A stretch of 64,000 nucleotides of DNA from Nocardioides pini (GTDB taxonomy: Bacteria; Actinomycetota; Actinomycetes; Propionibacteriales; Nocardioidaceae): assembly GCF_026712185.1 (NCBI RefSeq), contig NZ_JAPPUX010000001.1, forward strand, positions 1,178,001 to 1,242,000, read 5' to 3'. Position 1 is the stretch's first letter, and every line of letters begins with the position of its first letter. The translations under genes were made by a program, and so were the position numbers. Below, piece after piece: positions 19,415-31,661 of the stretch. Below the pieces are notes generated by a model that did no database searches, was not told the DNA's origin, and worked only from the letters and a program-made list of their open reading frames with translations.

Positions 19415-20662
19415 ATGACCGCGACCGACGTCTCCACCAGCTCCACTCCGGCCGTCTCCGAGCGCACGGCAGCCCACATCGAGGCCACCGAGCGCTACGC
19501 CGCGCACAACTACCACCCGCTGCCCGTGGTGCTCGCCGAGGGCGACGGCGCGTGGGTCGTCGACGTCGACGGCAAGCGCTACCTCGACTGCCTCGCGGGC
19601 TACTCGGCGCTCAACTTCGGCCACTCCAACGAGCGCCTCGTCGCGGTCGCGCGCGAGCAGCTCGGCAGGCTCACGCTGACCAGCCGCGCGTTCTTCAACG
19701 ACAAGCTCAGCGGCTTCGCCGAGGCCCTGTGCCGCCTGACCGGCAAGGACATGATCCTGCCGATGAACTCCGGCGCCGAGGCCGTCGAGACCGCCATCAA
19801 GGTCAGCCGCAAGTGGGGCTACGAGGTCAAGGGCGTCCCGGCCGGGCAGGCCACCATCATCACGATGGAGGGCAACTTCCACGGCCGCACCACGACCATC
19901 GTGAGCTTCTCCGACGACGAGGTCGCCACCTCGGGCTACGCGCCCTTCACCACGGGCTTCCGCGGTGTGAAGTACGGCGACATCGAGGCGGTCGCGTCCG
20001 CCATCGACGAGACCACGGTGGCCGTCCTCTTCGAGCCGATCCAGGGCGAGGGTGGCGTGGTCATGCCGCCCGAGGGCTTCCTGCGCGACCTGCGTGCGCT
20101 GTGCACCGAGCGCAACGTGCTGATGGTGGCCGACGAGATCCAGTCCGGTCTCGCGCGCTCCGGCAGGACGTTCGCCTGTGACCACGAGGACGTCGTCCCC
20201 GACATCTACATCATGGGCAAGGCCCTCGGCGGCGGGATCTACCCGGTCTCCGCGATCGCCGCGGACCGCGAGGTCATGGACGTCATCACGCCCGGCTCGC
20301 ACGGCTCGACCTTCGGCGGCAACCCGCTCGCGGCGGCCATCGGCACCGAGGTCGTCGCGATGCTCGAGGAGGGCACCTTCCAGGCCCGCTCGGCCGAGAT
20401 CGGCGCGCAGCTCGAGGCCGGCTTCGGCCGGCTCGTCGGCAAGGGCCTCTCCGACGTCCGCGTCCGGGGCGCCTGGGCCGGCATCGACATCGACCCGACG
20501 CTCATGTCGGGCCGGCAGATGTCGGAGGCGCTGATGGCGCGCGGCATCCTCGCCAAGGACACCCACGGCTCCACCGTCCGCTTCGCCCCGCCGCTGGTCG
20601 CCAGCGACGAGGACGTCGCCGGCCTGGTCGCCGCGGTCACCGAGATCGTCGCCGCGGGCTGA
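19415..20662 (+). CDS. rocD: Ornithine aminotransferase (ornithine-oxo-acid transaminase)
   Basis: The 415-aa class-III PLP aminotransferase converts ornithine and 2-oxoglutarate to glutamate-5-semialdehyde and glutamate. Diagnostic segments are HNYHPLPVVLAEGDGAWVVD, YLDCLAGYSALNFGH, MNSGAEAVETAIK and MEGNFHGRTTTIVSFS. FEPIQGEGGVVMPP, VADEIQSGLARSGRTFACDH and the PLP lysine at about 269 in IMGKALGGGIYPVSA follow. With proA, 5 kb upstream, it meets at the proline/arginine branch point. No SD is obvious before 19415, and the promoter is not clear. Confidence 0.93.
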   Translation: MTATDVSTSSTPAVSERTAAHIEATERYAAHNYHPLPVVLAEGDGAWVVDVDGKRYLDCLAGYSALNFGHSNERLVAVAREQLGRLTLTSRAFFNDKLSGFAEALCRLTGKDMILPMNSGAEAVETAIKVSRKWGYEVKGVPAGQATIITMEGNFHGRTTTIVSFSDDEVATSGYAPFTTGFRGVKYGDIEAVASAIDETTVAVLFEPIQGEGGVVMPPEGFLRDLRALCTERNVLMVADEIQSGLARSGRTFACDHEDVVPDIYIMGKALGGGIYPVSAIAADREVMDVITPGSHGSTFGGNPLAAAIGTEVVAMLEEGTFQARSAEIGAQLEAGFGRLVGKGLSDVRVRGAWAGIDIDPTLMSGRQMSEALMARGILAKDTHGSTVRFAPPLVASDEDVAGLVAAVTEIVAAG

Positions 20663-20815
20663 TCGCGCTGCGCGGCCCGGGCGGCCTCCACCGGGGTCAG
20701 CCCCTCCAACGGCGACCGGAGGGTGGGGGATGCGCGTCGAGGTGGTGCGCGACCAGCTCGGCGGCGTCCCCCGCGCAGGCCGCGGCGAAGGACGCCTCGT
20801 CGTCCCCGTGGGACC
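20663..20815. other. Intergenic region between convergent rocD and SDR genes
   Basis: These 153 bp lie between two stop codons. The minus strand reads as an Ala/His-rich open stretch without a convincing start or SD. I see no strong hairpin and assign no gene. Confidence 0.4.
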
Positions 20816-21577
20816 TCAGGCGATGGTGAGTCCGCCGTCGACTGGGATCGTCTGCCCGGTGACGTAGCCCGCGGCGTCGGACGCCAGCCAGACGGCGGTC
20901 GCCGCCAGCTCGCGCGGGTCGCCCTTGCGGCCGGCCGGCACGCGGGTCATGACCTGGTCGAGGTAGCCCTCGGGGTAGGTCGCGGTCATCTCCGAGGAGA
21001 AGAAGCCGGGCGCGAGGGCGTTGACGCGGATGCCCTTGCGGCCCATCCACTGCTGGGCGAGGTCGCGGGTGAGGCCGCCGAGGCCGGCCTTGGAGGCGGA
21101 GTACGCCGCCTGCGGCAGGCCGCCGGTGGTGATCCCGAGGATCGAGGAGATGTTCACGATGCTCGAGCCGGGCTGCATCACCCGGCCGCACGCCTGCGCC
21201 ATCCAGTAGCAGCCGTTGAGGTTGACGTCGATCACCGAGCGGAACTCGTCGGGCGTCTCCCGGGTCGCGGGGACGGCGGTGCCGACGCCCGCGTTGTTGA
21301 CCAGCACGTCGACCCGGCCGAACTTCGCCATCGCCTCGTCCACGAGCCGCTGGCACTGCTCGGGGTCGGCCACGTCGGTCGCGACGGTGTGCACGCGTCG
21401 GCCGGTCGATCGGACGGAATCGGCGACCCGCTCCAGCTTGTCCACACGACGCGCGCCCAGCACGACGTCGGCGCCCGCCTCGGCGAAGCAGTGGGCGAAC
21501 GCGACGCCCAGACCGCTGGAGGCACCCGTGACGATGACGACCTTGCCGTCGAGGCGGAAGAGATCCATGACGCTCAT
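20816..21577 (-). CDS. Short-chain dehydrogenase/reductase (SDR)
   Basis: The 253-aa classical SDR has the cofactor motif VTGASSGLGVAFA at residues 15-27, a helix-2 region GARRVDKLERV that favours NADP(H), DVLVNNAGVGTA and catalytic Ser/Tyr/Lys in NISSILGITTGG and YSASKAG. The C-terminal YVTGQTIPVDGGLTI is typical of FabG-like enzymes. It starts leaderless: TAGGGT (21586-21591) ends 8 bases before the ATG, and its TAG is the stop codon of the upstream MFS gene. The substrate is unknown. Confidence 0.88.
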   Translation of the reverse strand: MSVMDLFRLDGKVVIVTGASSGLGVAFAHCFAEAGADVVLGARRVDKLERVADSVRSTGRRVHTVATDVADPEQCQRLVDEAMAKFGRVDVLVNNAGVGTAVPATRETPDEFRSVIDVNLNGCYWMAQACGRVMQPGSSIVNISSILGITTGGLPQAAYSASKAGLGGLTRDLAQQWMGRKGIRVNALAPGFFSSEMTATYPEGYLDQVMTRVPAGRKGDPRELAATAVWLASDAAGYVTGQTIPVDGGLTIA

Positions 21578-21585
21578 GCCCGCTG

Positions 21586-21591
21586 ACCCTA
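21586..21591 (-). promoter_or_regulatory. -10 box TAGGGT formed from the MFS stop codon
   Basis: On the minus strand the MFS gene ends in TAG, and the next bases GGT complete a TAGGGT hexamer 8 bases before the SDR start codon. Confidence 0.55.
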
Positions 21592-22842
21592 GGACGTGCC
21601 GCTCGTCACCTCGGCCACGGGGGTGGCCGCGGCCCGCGGCAGGTCGCGCACGGACTGGGAGCAGAGCACCGCGGCACAGATCAGCGCGTACGCCACCCCC
21701 GAGCCGACGAGCACCTCGCTGGCGCCCAGCCAGAGCGCGAGGGGACCCCAGAGCAGCTGGCCGATGGGCATGGCGACGAAGGATCCGAGGGCGTCGTAGG
21801 AGTAGGCGCGCGAGAGCATGTCGTCGTCGATGTTCTCCTGCATCGCGAGGTTCCAGCCCATGGAGAAGACCTCGATGCCGGCCCCGCCCACGAAGGCGGC
21901 GAGCACCAGTGCCAGGAGGACGGGGTCGACGCCCAGCATGACCATCGGCACCGAGGCGAGGCTGATCCCGGCCATGCCCCACAGGAGGGGCCGCTCGAGC
22001 CGCACCCGCAGCAGCACCACGGCCATCACGAGTAGGCCGACCGCCTCGGCGGACAGGACGAGTCCCCAGCCCTGGCGACCGACGGCTGCGGTGTCCTCCG
22101 CGACGGCGGGCCCGAGCGTCTGCATGGTGCCGACGTGGATCATGTTGAGGACACCGAAGGCCACCACGACGACCCACAGCCACGTCGTCGACCAGAAGAA
22201 GGTCCACCCCTCGCGGAGCTCCGCGATGGTGCTGGTGGAGGCCTTCCGCTCGCGGGGCGGCACCTTCACGGGCACGAGCAGCACCGCGGCGACGAACCAG
22301 GTCGCGGCGTCGACGGCGAGCGCCCAGCCGGAGCCGATGCTCACGACGAGCAGGGCGCCGACGGTCGGGCCGAGGACGGCGAGGCCGTTGCGGGTCAGCG
22401 ACAGCAGCGCGTTGGCCGGCTGGAGCGCGTCGCGGGGGACCAGCTGCGGCACCATGCTCGCCATCGCCGGGAACGCGATGGCCGAGACCGCACCGTGCAC
22501 GACCGAGAGCACGATGACCATCCACAGCTCGGCGGCGCCCGTGATCACCAGGAAGGCGATGAGGCCCTGGGTGACGGCGGAGGCGAGGTTGGAGGCCTGG
22601 AGCACCACGGTGCGGGGGAACCGGTCGGAGATCACGCCTCCCCAGAGGAGCAGGACCACCATCGGGATGGTGTGCGCTGCCAGCACCTGGCCGAGCGCTG
22701 CCGGCGAGTCGTCGATGTCGAGCACGGCGAAGGCCAGGGCGATGTTGGCCATCATCCCGCCGAAGGTGTTGACCAAGCGCGACGCGAAGTACCACGCGAA
22801 GCTGCGGTTGCGCAGCGGTGCGAAGGAGGCTGCCCAGGTCAT
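21589..22842 (-). CDS. MFS transporter, EntS/DUF894-like exporter
   Basis: The 417-aa protein has about twelve TM segments. The N-terminal pattern RNRSFAWYFASRLVNTFGGM, WGGVISDRFPRTVVLQASNL (the MFS loop 2-3 motif) and SLTRNGLAVLGPTVGALLV fit the MFS_3 (EntS-like) exporters. A central charged loop (VPPRERKASTSTIAELREGW) separates the halves. Its ATG overlaps the upstream ArsR-type gene by 4 bp, so the pair is a regulator-exporter operon. The substrate is unknown. Confidence 0.85.
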   Translation of the reverse strand: MTWAASFAPLRNRSFAWYFASRLVNTFGGMMANIALAFAVLDIDDSPAALGQVLAAHTIPMVVLLLWGGVISDRFPRTVVLQASNLASAVTQGLIAFLVITGAAELWMVIVLSVVHGAVSAIAFPAMASMVPQLVPRDALQPANALLSLTRNGLAVLGPTVGALLVVSIGSGWALAVDAATWFVAAVLLVPVKVPPRERKASTSTIAELREGWTFFWSTTWLWVVVVAFGVLNMIHVGTMQTLGPAVAEDTAAVGRQGWGLVLSAEAVGLLVMAVVLLRVRLERPLLWGMAGISLASVPMVMLGVDPVLLALVLAAFVGGAGIEVFSMGWNLAMQENIDDDMLSRAYSYDALGSFVAMPIGQLLWGPLALWLGASEVLVGSGVAYALICAAVLCSQSVRDLPRAAATPVAEVTSGTS

Positions 22843-23420
22843 CGGCCCGCCTCGGGAGCGGAGTCGCGACCCGGCACCCAGCGGGCGGCCTCGCCCTCGA
22901 GCCCGCCGGTCATCGTGAAGGCGGTGGTGGTGGCGCTGACGTGCACGGTGTCGGGGGTGCCGGCCGGGCGGGCCTCGGCATGGAGGAGGTGGGAGGCCTC
23001 GTGCAGCAGGTCGAGGGCCCGCCGCCACGCCTCGACGGGCACCCACGCCTCGAGGTCGCTCGACGAGCCCGACCCGCGACCCGCCTCGAGCAGCCGGCGC
23101 TCCACCTCGAGCGCCGTGGCCCGGGCGTAGGCGATCCGGTCGTCGAGGGGGCTCGTGCGGTCGGCGACGTCGCGCGTGGCGTCGTACCGGTAGCGCTTGG
23201 CCACGCCGCCGCGGATCTTCTCCTCGCTCTCGACCACGAGCTCGCCGACGTCGTGGAGCTGGCGCAGGTGGTACGACGCGTTGGCGTGGGTGATCCCCAG
23301 GGCGCGGGCCACCTCGGCCGCGCTCATCGCCTCGGCGGTCAGCAGCGAGAGGATCCGCAGCCGCACCGGGTGTGCCGTCGCCCGCAGTCGCGTCACCGCG
23401 TCCTGGTCCGTCTCGTCCAT
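22839..23420 (-). CDS. ArsR-type winged-helix regulator
   Basis: The 193-aa protein has an N-terminal winged helix (residues about 8-85): LRATAHPVRLRILSLL, SAAEVARALGITHANASYHL, RQLHDVGELV. A wing KRYRY and a roughly 100-residue C-terminal domain with acidic and aromatic residues follow. The metal-binding Cys pattern of true ArsR sensors is missing, so it probably senses an organic ligand or the exporter substrate. GGAGGGTGGGG precedes the ATG. The paired 12-bp repeats at 23426-23496 lie in its promoter. Confidence 0.85.
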   Translation of the reverse strand: MDETDQDAVTRLRATAHPVRLRILSLLTAEAMSAAEVARALGITHANASYHLRQLHDVGELVVESEEKIRGGVAKRYRYDATRDVADRTSPLDDRIAYARATALEVERRLLEAGRGSGSSSDLEAWVPVEAWRRALDLLHEASHLLHAEARPAGTPDTVHVSATTTAFTMTGGLEGEAARWVPGRDSAPEAGR

Positions 23421-23425
23421 CGCCC

Positions 23426-23496
23426 CACCCTCCAAGAGTCGTTGGGCAGTAGCGTGCCGTCGCCCCGATGAACTGTCAAACACTTCTTGGAGGGTG
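23426..23496. promoter_or_regulatory. 12-bp inverted repeats flanking the ArsR-type gene promoter
   Basis: CACCCTCCAAGA (23426-23437) and TCTTGGAGGGTG (23485-23496) are exact reverse complements 47 bp apart. The gene-proximal copy overlaps the ribosome binding site, and between them, on the minus strand, lies a consensus -35 TTGACA (near 23474-23479). Two copies facing each other suggest a looped or cooperative repressor site. Confidence 0.5.
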
Positions 23497-23632
23497 ACCC
23501 GCCCGAGACCTCCCGAGCCCGACCCTGAGATGACCCTGACTCGCCCCCGGGAGGGGATGATCCCGGCTGATCGGCGTGCTTGGCTTGTCATCGACAAGGC
23601 GCGGGCACCCGGCCCGCGGAGGAGTGAGTGAG

Positions 23633-24133
23633 ATGTCCGACCAGTACCCCAGCCCGCAGGACCAGTCCGGTCAGGGCGGCTTCCAGCAGGGCGGCCACGA
23701 GCAGGGTGGCTACGCCCAGCAGCCGGAGCCCGCCTACCGCGCGGCGCCCGCCACCATGTCGGCGCAGGAGGAGCGCACCTGGGGTGCGATCAGCCACGCC
23801 GGCGCCGTGGTCGCGATGATCTGCTCGGTCGGGTTGCTGGGGTTCCTGGCCTCGATCGCGGTGTACGTCGTCCACAAGGACCGCGGGCCGTTCGTCCGCT
23901 CCCACGCAGCCAACTCGATCAACGTCCAGATCTCGATGTTCATCTGGCTGGTCGTGGCCGCGGTCCTCTACGTCATCCTCGGCCTCGTCACCCTCGGCAT
24001 CGGGTTCGTGGTCTTCCTGCCGGTCTTCGCCGTGCCGTTCGTCGTCGCCGGCGTCCTGCACGTCATCGGCGCGGTCAAGGCATGGAACGGCGAGTGGTGG
24101 AACCCGCCGTTCACCCCGCAGTTCGTCAGGTGA
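23633..24133 (+). CDS. DUF4870 membrane protein
   Basis: The 166-aa protein begins with a Gln/Gly-rich disordered N-terminus (residues 1-45, MSDQYPSPQDQSGQGGFQQ). The DUF4870 core follows: ERTWGAISHAGAVVAMICSV, YVVHKDRGPFVRSHAANSIN and two further TM segments up to VLHVIGAVKAWNGEWWNPP. GGAGG lies about 10 bases before the ATG. The family has no established function. Its 3' end overlaps the convergent nucleotidyltransferase by 8 bp. Confidence 0.88.
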   Translation: MSDQYPSPQDQSGQGGFQQGGHEQGGYAQQPEPAYRAAPATMSAQEERTWGAISHAGAVVAMICSVGLLGFLASIAVYVVHKDRGPFVRSHAANSINVQISMFIWLVVAAVLYVILGLVTLGIGFVVFLPVFAVPFVVAGVLHVIGAVKAWNGEWWNPPFTPQFVR

Positions 24134-24890
24134 GCTCGCGCAGGACCTCGTCCTGCCACGCGAACGCTGCCCGGGTCCGGACCACCAGGTCCGGCCCGGG
24201 CAGCAGTGCTTCCACCCGCTCCGCCATTCCCGCCGGCAGGTCGGTGCGCAGGTAGCGCAGCCCGAAGTCGTGGCGTGCCGGGCAGTGCCGGATGCGCAGC
24301 AGCCGCACGAGCGGCTCGACCGCGAACCGCAGGTGGAGCGAGGTGGCCTCGGCGAGGTCGTCCCGGGCGATCGCCCGCTCGACGAGCCAGGCCCCCGTCT
24401 GGCGCCGCGCGGCGGTCTGCGCCACCGCCTGCCGGCGCTGCGCCTCCATCTCCGCCTCGTCGTCGTCCTCGAGGACGAGCAGGCCGGCGGGGTCGTGCAC
24501 CACCAGCGGCACGCCGTGCCGGCGGGTGTCCATGGTGAGGCGCTCGGGAGTGGCCTGCACGACCACGTCCAGCAGCCGCGTCGGCCGGCTCAGGTCCGCG
24601 GCATCCGGTTGCAGGTGGACGAAGCACTGCCGGCCGGAGGGCCACGTCGCCTCGGGCAGCTCCCACACGTGGTCGACCGGGAGCTCGCGCCGGGCCAGGG
24701 CCAGCACGGCGTCGTACGTCGCCGTGGCGTCGCCGCTGCACCAGGCCTCGACGTCGAGGTCGGAGTGCTCGTCCCAGCCACCGGTCACCGCCGACCCGTT
24801 GACCACGACCACTTGCAGCGCCGGCACGTGCTGGGGGAGCGCGGCGAGGAAGCGGAGGCAGTCGTCGTACCTGCTCAGGTCAGCAGCCAT
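24126..24890 (-). CDS. Nucleotidyltransferase-fold protein
   Basis: The 254-aa protein carries the minimal nucleotidyltransferase motif: VVVVNGSAVTGGWDEHSDLD (GS, then DxD) at about residues 27-48. A helical C-terminal domain follows (LHLRFAVEPLVRLLRIRH, DFGLRYLRTDLP). This resembles aminoglycoside adenylyltransferases and other stand-alone DNA polymerase-beta-like transferases, but the substrate is undefined. A -10-like CATACT sits 7 bases before the ATG, so it may be leaderless. That element overlaps the start codons of the divergent leuS leader peptide. Confidence 0.72.
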   Translation of the reverse strand: MAADLSRYDDCLRFLAALPQHVPALQVVVVNGSAVTGGWDEHSDLDVEAWCSGDATATYDAVLALARRELPVDHVWELPEATWPSGRQCFVHLQPDAADLSRPTRLLDVVVQATPERLTMDTRRHGVPLVVHDPAGLLVLEDDDEAEMEAQRRQAVAQTAARRQTGAWLVERAIARDDLAEATSLHLRFAVEPLVRLLRIRHCPARHDFGLRYLRTDLPAGMAERVEALLPGPDLVVRTRAAFAWQDEVLRELT

Positions 24891-24900
24891 GGGAGCGAGT

Positions 24901-24948
24901 ATGATGTCTCTCGTGCACCAGCAGCTCCTTCTTCGACAGCCGCGCTGA
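24901..24948 (+). CDS. leuS leader peptide [15 protein letters not shown]
   Basis: A 15-codon reading frame lies in the leuS leader, with three consecutive leucine codons, CTC CTT CTT (24925-24933), and a TGA at 24946-24948. GGGAG lies 5 bases before the first ATG. A hairpin and then a terminator with six T follow within 60 bp. This is the layout of ribosome-mediated attenuation by leucyl-tRNA supply. The leader begins 10 bp from the start of the divergent nucleotidyltransferase, so the leuS promoter must overlap that gene's 5' end. Confidence 0.75.
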
Positions 24949-24975
24949 TCGGGATCTCCCACCCACGGAGACCGA
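24949..24975 (+). promoter_or_regulatory. Hairpin directly after the leuS leader peptide
   Basis: TCGG-(GA)-TCTCC and GGAGA-CCGA form a 9-bp stem with a 2-nt bulge and a 7-nt loop, starting at the base after the leader stop codon. It could be the pause or alternative hairpin. A second possible pairing, GCCGCG (24939-24944) with CGCGGC (24978-24983), would compete with it. I cannot rank these without folding. Confidence 0.5.
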
Positions 24976-24985
24976 CACGCGGCCA

Positions 24986-25008
24986 CCCCTCCATGCGAGG
25001 GGTTTTTT
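24986..25008 (+). terminator. Attenuator terminator upstream of leuS
   Basis: CCCCTC-CATGC-GAGGGG is followed by TTTTTT (25003-25008): a canonical intrinsic terminator, the only one in the window with a full T-run. It lies 43 bp in front of the leuS ATG and therefore must be read through for leuS expression. Confidence 0.85.
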
Positions 25009-25051
25009 CATGCCCGACCCCAGCATCACCCGCACCTGCAGAGGACACGCC

Positions 25052-27556
<2,505 letters not shown>

Positions 27557-27581
27557 TCCCACCACCATCTAGGGTCGCTGC

Positions 27582-28439
27582 ATGACTCAGGTCGTCGTGG
27601 TCACGGACTCGACCGCGAGCCTGCCCGCCGAGGTGGCGCAGGCTCGCGGCATCCGGGTCGTGCCGCTCCAGGTGGTGATCGGCGCGCGGGTGCTCGAGGA
27701 GGGACCCGACGGTGCCACGCCCGACGTGGTCGCGGAGGCGCTGCGCGACTTCGTGCCGGTCAGCACCTCGCGCCCGGCACCGGCCCTGTTCGCCGACCTC
27801 TACCGCTCGCTCGAGGCCGAGGGCGTCGACGAGATCGTGTCGGTGCACCTGTCCGGCGAGATGAGCGGCACCTTCGAGTCCGCCCAGCTCGCGGCGCTCG
27901 AGGTCGAGCTGCCGGTGCACGTGGTGGACTCCGGGCAGGTCGGCATCGCCACCGGCTTCGCCGCCCTCACCGCGGCCGACGTGCTCGACGCCGGCGGGAC
28001 CGGGGAGGAGGCGGCGCAGGCCGCGCTCGCCCGGGGGCAGGCGGCGACCTCGCTGTTCTACGTCGACACGCTGGAGTACCTCCGCCGCGGCGGGCGCATC
28101 GGCGCCGCCGCCGCGATCCTCGGCAGCGCGCTGTCGGTGAAGCCGCTGCTCGAGATCGCCGAGGGCCGCGTGGCACCACGCGAGCGCGTCCGCACCGCCT
28201 CGCGGGCCCTGGCCCGACTCGCCGAGCTCGCCGTCGAGGCGGCGGGCGACCAGCCGGTCGACGTGTGCGTCTCCCACCTGGCCAACGCCGGCCGCGCCGA
28301 GGAGCTCGCCGCCACCCTGACCGACCGGCTCGCCGACGGGCTGGAGGGGCGCGAGGTGATGTGCGGGGAGCTCGGTGCCGTGCTCGGCGCCCACGTCGGA
28401 CCCGGCATGGTCGCGGTCTGCGTCTCCCCGCGGCCCTGA
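27582..28439 (+). CDS. DegV family fatty-acid-binding protein
   Basis: The 285-aa protein has the DegV/FakB fold: VVTDSTASLPAEVAQARGIR at the N-terminus, VSTSRPAPALFADLYRSLE, VSVHLSGEMSGTFESAQLAA and VVDSGQVGIATGFAAL. YVDTLEYLRRGGRIGAAAAI and a C-terminal GAVLGAHVGPGMVAV follow. Family members bind fatty acids, and some serve fatty-acid kinases; no kinase subunit is adjacent. TAGGGT ends six bases before the ATG, giving a leaderless transcript independent of leuS. Confidence 0.9.
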   Translation: MTQVVVVTDSTASLPAEVAQARGIRVVPLQVVIGARVLEEGPDGATPDVVAEALRDFVPVSTSRPAPALFADLYRSLEAEGVDEIVSVHLSGEMSGTFESAQLAALEVELPVHVVDSGQVGIATGFAALTAADVLDAGGTGEEAAQAALARGQAATSLFYVDTLEYLRRGGRIGAAAAILGSALSVKPLLEIAEGRVAPRERVRTASRALARLAELAVEAAGDQPVDVCVSHLANAGRAEELAATLTDRLADGLEGREVMCGELGAVLGAHVGPGMVAVCVSPRP

Positions 28440-28469
28440 CGTCCGAGCGGCTCTCCACAGATTGCCGAT

Positions 28470-28488
28470 CGCCCCTGTCGACGGGGCG
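28470..28488. terminator. Short GC hairpin after degV
   Basis: CGCCCC and GGGGCG form a 6-bp stem around a 7-nt loop, 30 bp after the degV stop and upstream of the comEA -10. It has no T-run. It may be a weak terminator or chance pairing. Confidence 0.3.
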
Positions 28489-28511
28489 TGCGCGTTCCTA
28501 GCGTGGACGGC

Positions 28512-29387
28512 ATGCGCCAATCCCAGTCGTCCTCCGAGCACGCCGAGGCGGTGTCGCGGCGGCTGGCGACGCTGAGCGCGGAGCTTGCCGCGGTGCGCGG
28601 GGAGCCGGCCGACGCGCTCGACCCGGCCCAGGGCCACACCCGGGTCCGCGAGCGACCCGACCGGCACCCTGCGCCTGCGCCCGCTCCGGCGCCCGTCGTG
28701 CCGCCGGTGCCGGGCCGCCACGCCTCGCGCCGGCTGCGGGTCGGCGGGGTGCAGCTCGGCCCGCTGCACCTCGCCGTCGTCGCGGTGGTCGCGGCACTGG
28801 CCGTCGGGCTGGCGGCGTGGTGGGCGGTGCGCGACCAGGCTCGCCCCGTGCCGGTCGCGCCGGCCGCGTCCGGTGCGACCGGGTCGGCCACGCCGCTGGC
28901 CCCCGTCGTGCCGTCGGACGCCACCGGCACGGGTGGCGCGTCCGGCGGGACCGGCCCGGGGGAGGACCTGGTGGTCGACGTCGCGGGCAAGGTACGACGT
29001 CCGGGCATCGCCGTGCTGCCCGCCGGGTCGCGCGTGGTGGACGCCCTGCAGGCGGCGGGCGGCGCCCGGCGAGGTGTCGACCTCACCGCGCTCAACCTCG
29101 CGCGCCCCGTGGTGGACGGCGAGCAGATCCTCGTGGGCGTCGCCCCGGCCGCGGGAGTGGCCGGGACGGTCGACTCCGCGGCCCCGGGTGGGGCGGCGCT
29201 CGTCAACCTCAACACCGCCGACCAGGCGGCTCTCGACACGCTGCCCGGCGTCGGACCGGTGACGGCGGACGCCATCCTCGCGTGGCGCGACAGCAACGGC
29301 GGCTTCACCTCCGTCGACGAGCTGCTCGAGGTCGACGGCATCGGTGAGGCCACCCTCGCCGACCTCGCTCCGCTCGTCACCCTCTGA
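28512..29387 (+). CDS. comEA: ComEA-like DNA-binding competence protein
   Basis: The 291-aa protein has a cytosolic Pro/Arg-rich N-terminus, one TM helix at about 84-105 (LHLAVVAVVAALAVGLAAWW), an Ala/Gly/Thr linker and an SLBB domain (VVDVAGKVRRPGIAVLPAGS, ALNLARPVVDGEQILVGVA). The C-terminal helix-hairpin-helix pair follows (VNLNTADQAALDTLPGVGP, FTSVDELLEVDGIGEATL). Family members bind incoming double-stranded DNA outside the membrane. The start is leaderless (TAGCGT at 28499-28504, 7 bases before the ATG). The comEC gene follows 6 bp after the stop. Confidence 0.88.
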   Translation: MRQSQSSSEHAEAVSRRLATLSAELAAVRGEPADALDPAQGHTRVRERPDRHPAPAPAPAPVVPPVPGRHASRRLRVGGVQLGPLHLAVVAVVAALAVGLAAWWAVRDQARPVPVAPAASGATGSATPLAPVVPSDATGTGGASGGTGPGEDLVVDVAGKVRRPGIAVLPAGSRVVDALQAAGGARRGVDLTALNLARPVVDGEQILVGVAPAAGVAGTVDSAAPGGAALVNLNTADQAALDTLPGVGPVTADAILAWRDSNGGFTSVDELLEVDGIGEATLADLAPLVTL

Positions 29388-29393
29388 CCCGAC

Positions 29394-31661
29394 GTGCCCG
29401 ACCTGCGCGCGGTCGCCCTCGGCCTCGGTGCCTGGGCGGGCGCGCTCCTGGTCCTCCTCGCGCCGGGCCCACCGGCCCTCGCAGCGATCGTGGCGGTGGT
29501 GGTCCTGGTCGTGACCGGCGTGGTCCGCCGGTGGTGGTCCCCCGGCTGGCTGGGGCCGCTCGCAGCCCTCGCGGCGGTCGCCGGGGTGGCCGCGCTCCAG
29601 CACGTCCTCCTGACCACCTCGCCCCTCGCGGCCCTGGCCGAGGAGGGCGCCGTCGTCACGGTGGAGCTCGAGCTGACCTCCGACGTGCGCGTGGTGAGCG
29701 GGCAGTACGGCGACCTCCAGGTCGTCCGGGCCGCCGTGACCCGCGCCGAGGGGCGGGGGAGCGCGTGGACGCTCGACGCGCCGGTCGTGGTGATGGCCCC
29801 CGCCGACTGGCCACGGCTGCCGCTGGGCACCCGGCTGGAGACGACGGCCCGCCTCGTCCCCGGCGACGGGGACGTGGCTGCCCTGGTGCGCCCGTCGGGA
29901 GAGCCGACGGTCGTGGCCGAGCCCGGCGTGTGGTGGGACGCCGCGGCAGCCGTACGCCGCTCGGTGCGCGCCGCGGTCGCCGGACGGGACGCCGACGCGC
30001 GCGAGCTCGTGCCGGCGCTGGTGGTCGGGGACGACGGCGGGCTCGACCCCGACCTCGCCGACGACTTCCGGACCACCGGGCTGACCCACCTGCTGGCGGT
30101 GAGCGGGACCAACCTGACCCTGGTGGTGGGCTTCCTGCTCGTGCTCGGCCGGTGGCTCGGGGTGCGCGGCCCGTGGCTCTACGCCCTGGGTGTCCTCGGC
30201 ATCGTCGGCTTCGTGCTGACCGCGCGGGCCGAGCCGAGCGTCGTGCGCGCCGCGGCGATGGGTGCCGTGGCGCTGGTCGGGATGGGGCGCAACGGACGGT
30301 CCCGCGGGGTGCGGGGCCTGGGCGTGGCGGTGCTCGGCCTGCTGCTGGTGTGGCCGCGGCTCGCCGTGACGGCGGGCTTCGCGCTGTCCGCGCTCGCGAC
30401 CGCCGGGATCCTCCTGCTGGCGCCGGTCTGGCGCGACGCGCTCGGGCGGTGGACGCCGCGGTGGGTCGCGGAGGCGGTGTCGGTGCCGCTGGCGGCGCAG
30501 GTGGCCTGCACGCCGGTCGTGGCGGCCATCTCGGGCCAGGTCAGCCTCGTCGCGGTCGGGGCCAACCTGCTGGCCGCACCGGCCGTCGCGCCGGCGACCG
30601 TGCTGGGCCTGGGCGGCGGGCTGCTCGGGCTGGTGTGGAGCCCGCTCGGGGTCGCGGTGGCTGCCCCGGCGGCGTGGTCGGCGGCCTGGATCATCGCGGT
30701 CGCCCGCTGGGGCGCGGGCATCCCGACGGCCGCGGTCGACTGGGGCACCGGTCCGGTGCCGCTCGTGCTGCTCACCGGGCTGTGCCTGCTGTCGGTGCCA
30801 CTCGCCCCGCGGCTGCTCGGACGACCGGCCACGACCCTCGCCTGCACCGGTCTGCTCGTGGTCATGATGCTGGTCCGGCCGCCCTCGCCGGGCTGGCCGC
30901 CGCGCGGGTGGGTGCTGGCGATGTGCGACGTGGGCCAGGGGGACGCCCTCGTCCTGCGCGCCGGCCCCGGCTCGGCGGTCGTGGTCGACGCCGGGCCCGA
31001 GCCCGCACCGACCGACGCCTGCCTGGACCGGCTCGAGGTCGAGGCCGTGCCCCTGCTCGTGTTGACGCACTTCCACGCCGACCACGTCGGAGGCGTCGCA
31101 GGCGTGCTGGACGGCCGCGAGGTGGGCGAGGTCGAGGGCACGGGGCTGCTCGACCCGCCCGAGGGCGCCAGGGCGACCGGGCGAGCGGTCGGCCACGACC
31201 TGGCCCCGGCGGCGTACGGCCTCACCCGGCGCGTCGGCGCGGTGACACTGCAGACGGTGTGGCCACGTCCCGGCGCCGGCCCGGGCGACCCCGCGGAGAG
31301 CGCGCCCAACAACGCCAGCGTCGTCCTCGTCGCCGAGGTGGGCGGGGTGCAGGTCCTGCTGACCGGCGACGTCGAGCCCTCGGCCCAGCGGACCCTCGCC
31401 CGCGACCTGGCGGGCCTGCGCGTCGACGTGCTCAAGGTGCCGCACCACGGCAGCCGCCACCAGGACCTCGACTGGCTCACGTCGCTGCAGGCGCGGCTCG
31501 CGCTGGTGTCGGTGGGGGAGGACAACGACTACGGGCACCCGGCGCCCGAGCTGGTGGCAGCGCTCTCCGCGGCCGGTGCGAGCGTGTGGCGCACCGACGT
31601 CTCCCGCGACGTGGTCGTGGTGGTCGAGGACGGCGAGCTGGGTGTCGTCGCCCGCGGATAG
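29394..31661 (+). CDS. comEC: ComEC/Rec2 family DNA internalization protein
   Basis: The 755-aa membrane protein has N-terminal TM helices and an OB-like DUF4131 region (up to about residue 180). The competence domain follows with the hallmark LTHLLAVSGTNLTLVVGFLL and about eight TM segments. A C-terminal metallo-beta-lactamase domain has DVGQGDALVLRAG, LTHFHADHVGGVAGVLD, LTGDVEPSAQR and VPHHGSRHQD. In transformable bacteria this is the channel with associated nuclease activity. The start is GTG at 29394. The TAG stop is also the first half of the holA -10 box. Confidence 0.93.
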   Translation: MPDLRAVALGLGAWAGALLVLLAPGPPALAAIVAVVVLVVTGVVRRWWSPGWLGPLAALAAVAGVAALQHVLLTTSPLAALAEEGAVVTVELELTSDVRVVSGQYGDLQVVRAAVTRAEGRGSAWTLDAPVVVMAPADWPRLPLGTRLETTARLVPGDGDVAALVRPSGEPTVVAEPGVWWDAAAAVRRSVRAAVAGRDADARELVPALVVGDDGGLDPDLADDFRTTGLTHLLAVSGTNLTLVVGFLLVLGRWLGVRGPWLYALGVLGIVGFVLTARAEPSVVRAAAMGAVALVGMGRNGRSRGVRGLGVAVLGLLLVWPRLAVTAGFALSALATAGILLLAPVWRDALGRWTPRWVAEAVSVPLAAQVACTPVVAAISGQVSLVAVGANLLAAPAVAPATVLGLGGGLLGLVWSPLGVAVAAPAAWSAAWIIAVARWGAGIPTAAVDWGTGPVPLVLLTGLCLLSVPLAPRLLGRPATTLACTGLLVVMMLVRPPSPGWPPRGWVLAMCDVGQGDALVLRAGPGSAVVVDAGPEPAPTDACLDRLEVEAVPLLVLTHFHADHVGGVAGVLDGREVGEVEGTGLLDPPEGARATGRAVGHDLAPAAYGLTRRVGAVTLQTVWPRPGAGPGDPAESAPNNASVVLVAEVGGVQVLLTGDVEPSAQRTLARDLAGLRVDVLKVPHHGSRHQDLDWLTSLQARLALVSVGEDNDYGHPAPELVAALSAAGASVWRTDVSRDVVVVVEDGELGVVARG

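Follow-up and report, generated by a model that had tools for sequence, protein, structure and literature searches.

A leucine-codon leader and two adjoining hairpins as a probable attenuator of leuS in Nocardioides

Results

The leader region of leuS

The leucyl-tRNA synthetase gene, leuS, of the soil bacterium Nocardioides pini lies in the 64-kb stretch of DNA that we analysed (the window) and is preceded by a compact leader region. The parts of the locus, each with the basis of its assignment, are as follows.

24900..24905, + strand: -10 box TATGAT (TAnnnT) of the leader promoter (consensus over genus leaders)
24913..24948, + strand: leader peptide reading frame, 11 codons, GTG start, probably leaderless (genus comparison)
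24925..24933, + strand: Leu control codons CTC CTT CTT, of which the last (24931-24933, CTT) is the most conserved
24939..24983, + strand: hairpin A, core GCCGCG (24939-24944) with CGCGGC (24978-24983) (covariation)
24949..24975, + strand: inner part of hairpin A, lineage-specific (genus alignment)
24985..25003, + strand: terminator hairpin T, ACCCCTC-CATGC-GAGGGGT, 1 nt 3' of A (covariation; terminator scan)
25003..25008, + strand: U-tract T6, then CATG; its first T also closes hairpin T
25052..27556, + strand: leuS, leucyl-tRNA synthetase, 834 aa, ATG at 25052 (reading frame; homologue matches)

leuS has near full-length matches with 71-94% identity in 54 other genomes of the genus; the matches are broken or partial in G042, G048 and G004. 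No conserved -35 box was seen at the leader promoter. As a first, sequence-only reading of the locus had described, the terminator CCCCTC-CATGC-GAGGGG-T6 ends 43 bp before the leuS ATG, and its T6 is the sole run of this kind on either strand of the window (GC 72.9%). A simple terminator scan of positions 20000-30000 returned two sites, one of them the leader terminator, where shuffled sequences lead one to expect 1.1, so the scan alone proves nothing. The RNA from 24913 to 25010 had a folding energy of -38.7 kcal/mol; shuffled versions averaged -27.5 (z -3.25), and none of 200 folded as well. Rfam covariance models, applied to the whole window at gathering thresholds, matched tRNA alone, with no T-box or other family at the element.

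The sequence-only reading had also proposed a 15-codon frame with three Leu codons. The frame through CTC CTT CTT exists, but its ATG start is unsupported: the ATGs at 24901 and 24904 both overlap the TATGAT box, the conserved start is the GTG at 24913, 7 nt past the box, and among 57 loci only the close relative L007 shares the upstream part of that frame. The hairpin at 24949-24975 is likewise present but not conserved, the loop of A varying in both sequence and length among relatives; on the genus alignment, it is a lineage-specific filling of that loop. Nor can it be mutually exclusive with the pairing of 24939-24944 and 24978-24983, as had been supposed, because this pairing encloses it and both belong to the same minimum-energy fold.

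Conservation and covariation within the genus

We searched 59 genomes of the genus and compared 57 leuS upstream regions, leaving out those of G004 and G031, where the leuS matches are fragmentary or weak. The whole element (TAnnnT, a short leader with a Leu run, hairpin A, terminator T) was found in 51 of the 57. An alignment of this kind had been suggested in the sequence-only reading as a check; the recurrence of the Leu-rich frame in 51 of 57 loci, together with covariation of both helices, is more than chance would give. The distance from box to start codon was 6 or 7 nt in all 50 leaders recovered by a search that allowed 4-10 nt and used the TAnnnT box as a criterion, and a second search, which required 6-7 nt, recovered one longer leader (51 in total). 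This spacing from the -10 box suggests that initiation in Nocardioides is probably leaderless. Among the six loci without a leader, five carry TATCCT 6 nt before leuS itself, and in L051 TAGGCT lies 11 nt before leuS (both by eye).

Two of the 51 leaders have two Leu codons instead of three. The peptide takes the form LLLxxP[RH]-stop in 35 leaders and LLLx-stop in 16, and in the shorter form the UAG stop occupies the place where most of the longer leaders have CAG; the RNA arm of A is thereby kept even though it is mostly untranslated there. The U-tract is degraded in 5 of the 51 loci (L032, L035, L036, L037 and L039), which have similar sequences and keep the leader, A and T.

In a MAFFT alignment of the 51 genus sequences, 99.1% of the cells of A and T pair, and two-sided changes occur at 5 of 13 pairs. 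None of 500 shuffles reached the observed number of two-sided changes or the covariation score, but as many pair types as observed were seen in 275 of the 500. Taken separately, the core of hairpin A has 99.3% of cells paired with two-sided change at 2 of 6 pairs, and hairpin T has 98.9% paired with two-sided change at 3 of 7. The 61 leuS elements from outside the genus gave 100% of cells paired in the A core (3 of 6 pairs with two-sided change) and 93.8% in T, whose first pair fails in 15 of the 61. A covarying stem with a U-tract thus makes up the predicted intrinsic terminator between leader and leuS.

Beyond the U-tract (25009-25012 in the window) most genus elements have CATG, TGTG or a near variant, at a constant distance from GGGG; it may belong to a sequence at which the polymerase pauses or terminates. 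That [CT][AG]TG here is a start codon opening the leuS frame was considered and rejected, the frame not being conserved.

Control codons

The last Leu codon of the run is CTT in 48 of 51 genus leaders and in 57 of 61 leaders from outside the genus, and CTT accounts for 4 of 1,898 Leu codons (0.2%) in the coding sequences of 30 leuS genes. At the second Leu position 30 of the 51 have CTT and 21 have CTC; at the first, CTG predominates. That attenuators use rare or sensitive control codons is known (text portions of PMC1183508); the notable point of the codon bias here is its concentration at one position.

Distribution and relation to known leuS leaders

A covariance model of the element (R1) found matches in 147 of 245 genomes of the order and in 25 of 396 drawn from the phylum; the filters applied to R1 were strict, so both counts are lower bounds. 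There were 24 new phylum loci, of which 21 were taken as leuS elements, with LeuS downstream in 21 of 21; the other three (L109, L110, L112) are not leuS elements. LeuS also lies downstream (tblastn) in all 49 genus and 79 further leuS elements that could be parsed. Seven R1 matches are not followed by leuS and were excluded from the leuS sets: those three and L113, L114, L116 and L117, which lie before citramalate synthase-like genes. A search with the exact element pattern gave 67 matches in named genomes, 48 of them in Nocardioides and two in Streptomyces; a LeuS-like motif follows within 600 nt in 65, and in the other two the sequence ends 12 and 174 nt past the element.

Several of these loci have features of their own. 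Three inspected genomes of family f4 (L118, L119, L120) have two leuS paralogues a few kb apart with an element before each, and in one f3 genome (L115) a second leuS also has an element. In distant members of the phylum, L109 has a related element with the leader MSQNLLLT-stop before a leuA-like gene, and L110 and L112 have a related element (leader ending in LIT-stop) before a short reading frame, with an ilvB-like gene further downstream in L112 only.

An attenuator on leuS had been called less familiar in the sequence-only reading, but such elements have been in print since 2005, when they were predicted in Streptomyces (Seliverstov et al., text portions of PMC1262725). The S. lividans leader leuL2, MRAVRLLLSEPR-stop, is described in the text portions of PMC8079986 as a leaderless frame with a hairpin and uridines behind it. 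Nine of the 11 leaders from Streptomyces-like genomes (f6 g39) encode this same peptide, MRAVRLLLSEPR, and the leaders of this group match R1 at E values of 1e-10 to 1e-8. The Nocardioides element has the same gene, Leu leader, hairpin and terminator as the Streptomyces leuS and S. lividans leuL2 elements; the hallmarks of a leuL2-type actinobacterial leuS leader, a start near TAnnnT, an LLL run, a hairpin, a U-tract and leuS downstream, were all found. Judged by these sequence features, it belongs with the Streptomyces leuS attenuators and leuL2.

Spacing of the parts

We parsed 153 elements: 49 genus leuS elements, 79 further leuS elements and 25 elements before cimA (the isoleucine twins described below). 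L036 and L039, in which no terminator was parsed, are outside the 49. In the window, the first pair of hairpin A lies 5 nt past the last Leu codon. Between the last control codon and A there are 4-5 nt in 48 of 49 genus leuS, 69 of 79 further leuS and 25 of 25 cimA elements, and in 51 of 61 leuS elements outside the genus; in L016 and L146 a later Leu codon was taken as the last control codon, and both were counted as departures. The gap between A and T is 0-2 nt in 49 of 49, 77 of 79 and 25 of 25, respectively. The spacings are built into R1, by which the 79 further leuS elements were detected (18 of these come from the same genus), so the geometry of that set carries no independent weight. 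The genus leuS set and the cimA set were collected through their proteins, independently of R1. The outer length of A ranges from 27 to 47 nt in the 49 genus elements and from 21 to 57 nt over the 153, and the position of the stop codon is variable across the 153. The median distance from stop codon to T is 30 nt in both leuS sets and 25 nt before cimA (minimum 17), and it is 17-19 nt in 13 of 128 leuS elements, below the 27 nt reported as repression-free in E. coli. Neither the tight spacings nor the CTT bias is mentioned in the text portions of the 2005 Streptomyces leuS paper (PMC1262725), and the tight geometry and the absence of an antiterminator (see below) were not found in the literature searched, the coverage of which is incomplete and excludes figures.

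An isoleucine twin and other leaders of the same genome

An isoleucine version of the element stands before a citramalate synthase-like gene (cimA) in 25 of 25 parsed genus loci, out of 29 fetched (L219-L247; L232, L238, L242 and L247 were dropped, their gene motif being unmatched). Its layout is an Ile run ending in ATT or ATC, then 5 nt, a hairpin, 0-2 nt and a terminator. The twin in the genome of the window (L224, contig C10 of G000) lies upstream of 504223-505560 and has the leader MTISTIIIA-stop. ATT stands last in the Ile run of 23 of 25 leaders, versus 2 of 391 Ile codons (0.5%) in the 25 citramalate synthase-like genes. No description of this twin was found in the literature searched (coverage incomplete).

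Two further leaders were seen in the same genome. An ilvB-like gene (L253, G000, C10) has the leader MRTEILVRTRRVS-stop with the codons ATT CTT GTA, a hairpin that abuts the terminator, and T6CATG; its layout is looser, with 7 nt, not 4-5, from the last control codon (GTA) to the hairpin. A leuA-like gene (L256, G000, C1) has the leader MMRSLLLLRRRSEA-stop with four Leu codons and no U-tract in the displayed sequence, in agreement with the LEU element described for leuA.

Search for an antiterminator

The E. coli trp, leu, thr and his leaders have antiterminators, and we used them as positive controls. In the 153 elements, constrained and truncated folding revealed no conserved antiterminator of the E. 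coli type. When the 5' arm of A was blocked, T kept its six core pairs in 48 of 51 sequences and five of six in the remaining three, and alternatives without T were on average 7.8 kcal/mol worse (minimum 1.1) in 117 of 137 distinct sequences; the other 20 gave no hairpin A and so were unevaluated. We also computed the probability that the 5' arm of T is paired before its 3' arm is made. The mean was 0.24 for genus leuS, 0.32 for further leuS and 0.27 for cimA elements, with 0.21 for the window's own element, and the controls gave 0.50-0.75.

These values bear on the possibility that the element is a classical trp-type attenuator with an unrecognised 2:3 antiterminator. Seliverstov et al. describe the Streptomyces leuS elements as classical attenuators that have both an antiterminator and a terminator hairpin (2005; text portions of PMC1262725), and the probability that the T 5' arm is paired before its 3' arm is made exceeds 0.5 in 17 of our 153 elements (up to 0.84). 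Folding, however, found no mutually exclusive 2:3 antiterminator, although these 17 overlap the range of the E. coli controls, and the low means of the three sets and the energetic cost of structures without T both argue against one. The loop of A, the sole sequence left free, is moreover unconserved. In E. coli leuL and trpL, which like the present element combine end-product control codons (in leuL with the rare Leu codon CUA) with an intrinsic terminator, the 5' arm of T is paired upstream (0.60-0.71), as a 2:3 antiterminator requires. Since kinetics and tertiary contacts do not enter into such folding, a transient antiterminator is possible, but we regard a classical design as very unlikely. 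The 2005 description, with its antiterminator hairpins, differs in this respect from the 153 elements analysed here.

Two features considered by eye were set aside. The Leu codons CUCCUU could pair with GAGGGG of T as a switch, but a stalled ribosome would cover them and the CTG/CTT variants weaken the pairing; the UG in the T loop could be a hairpin-dependent pause site, but its distance from A varies (9-11 nt) and cimA elements are often without it.

Another parallel is the ilvBNC leader of Corynebacterium glutamicum (Ryabchenko et al. 2025), which is also leaderless, has the control codons CUU and GUA, and places a hairpin directly before the terminator. There, antiterminator and terminator overlap by three nucleotides (text portions of PMC11857589), and by analogy A might be a true antiterminator that displaces the boundary pairs of T when the ribosome stalls, in a fast attenuator of the kind proposed for ilvBNC. 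The order of parts is the same in both, from control codons through hairpin to adjoining terminator. Strictly defined, however, the extension of A into T is 0 nt in 133 of the 153 elements and a single pair in the other 20. With one mismatch allowed it is 1-3 nt in 83, but the full 3 nt is reached in 1 of 153 even then, and a single terminal pair is unlikely to decide between structures. The boundary trinucleotide shared in ilvBNC is thus absent here, and we consider this mode of action unlikely.

Discussion

The leucine-leader attenuator first proposed for this locus has held up: conservation, covariation, codon choice and the published Streptomyces leuS leaders all support it. On the other side stand the six genus loci that have no element, the five with a degraded U-tract, the short distances from stop codon to T in 13 leuS elements and the looser spacing of the ilvB leader. 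Attenuation as such is very likely, and a ribosome-mediated transcription attenuator of leuS is the likely explanation of the element as a whole. It would probably switch leuS on when leucine-loaded tRNA runs short, although both termination in vivo and the response to leucine are here predicted from the sequences.

In the mechanism that we propose, RNA polymerase would start at or very near the GTG at 24913, and a ribosome would translate the leaderless 11-codon leader. With leucyl-tRNA plentiful, the ribosome would pass CTC CTT CTT, reach the stop codon and unfold A; T, at least 17 nt past the stop codon, would then fold, and most transcripts would end at the U-tract. With charged tRNA-Leu scarce, the ribosome would wait, its A site occupied by the last Leu codon. 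Given the 5-nt spacer, A would then begin 11 nt from the first P-site nucleotide, which is the entry of the 30S subunit for mRNA. Docked there, A would place the 5' arm of T against the ribosome; in our preferred reading T would be occluded, and the polymerase would read through into leuS. As 0-2 nt separate the 3' arm of A from the 5' arm of T, any folding of T would be against the ribosome. The start of the terminator is 27-63 nt downstream of the last control codon in sequence.

The idea that A keeps T pressed to a stalled ribosome is new; we give it somewhat less than an even chance and know of no published example of such a step. By the toeprint convention a ribosome covers more mRNA than by the entry-channel convention, and a ribosome with that footprint at the last codon would block part of A, which counts against the step. 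We propose occlusion on two published grounds. Stem-loops 11-12 nt from the first P-site nucleotide lie at the mRNA entry and hinder tRNA binding to the A site, an effect relieved at 13 nt (text portions of PMC7282821), and in E. coli an intrinsic terminator is repressed by a ribosome within about 27 nt (text portions of PMC4824070). The latter paper describes occlusion of the pyrBI type, where, as proposed here, a nearby ribosome prevents the terminator from folding. In pyrBI-type occlusion, however, the ribosome is close in sequence, whereas in our proposal it is close only because A folds the intervening RNA away.

The same position of A, 11 nt from the first P-site nucleotide and known to slow tRNA binding, would also suit a simpler role, in which A merely pauses the polymerase or slows the ribosome while T, as a constitutive partial terminator, fixes the basal level of leuS. 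This is hard to reconcile with the strong selection of a rare codon, Leu or Ile, precisely at the end of the control run, matching the product of the gene downstream, unless the element senses that amino acid, and we consider it very unlikely.

Extending the proposed occlusion, we tentatively entertain a hairpin relay that has no antiterminator: the spacer hairpin at the ribosome entry would let the stalled ribosome block T, the same device would serve leuS and citramalate synthase, and the rare last codon ending in U would mark the sensing site. Taken whole, this is a possibility that we would not favour with confidence.

Attenuators are commonly understood as a contest between two RNA shapes. 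The present one seems to have just a terminator and a single spacer hairpin, set at tight distances, which suggests a steric switch in place of base-pair competition; it may need no alternative RNA shape of the usual kind. The marked bias towards the rarest codon ending in U at one position makes these leaders a clean case for control-codon selection.
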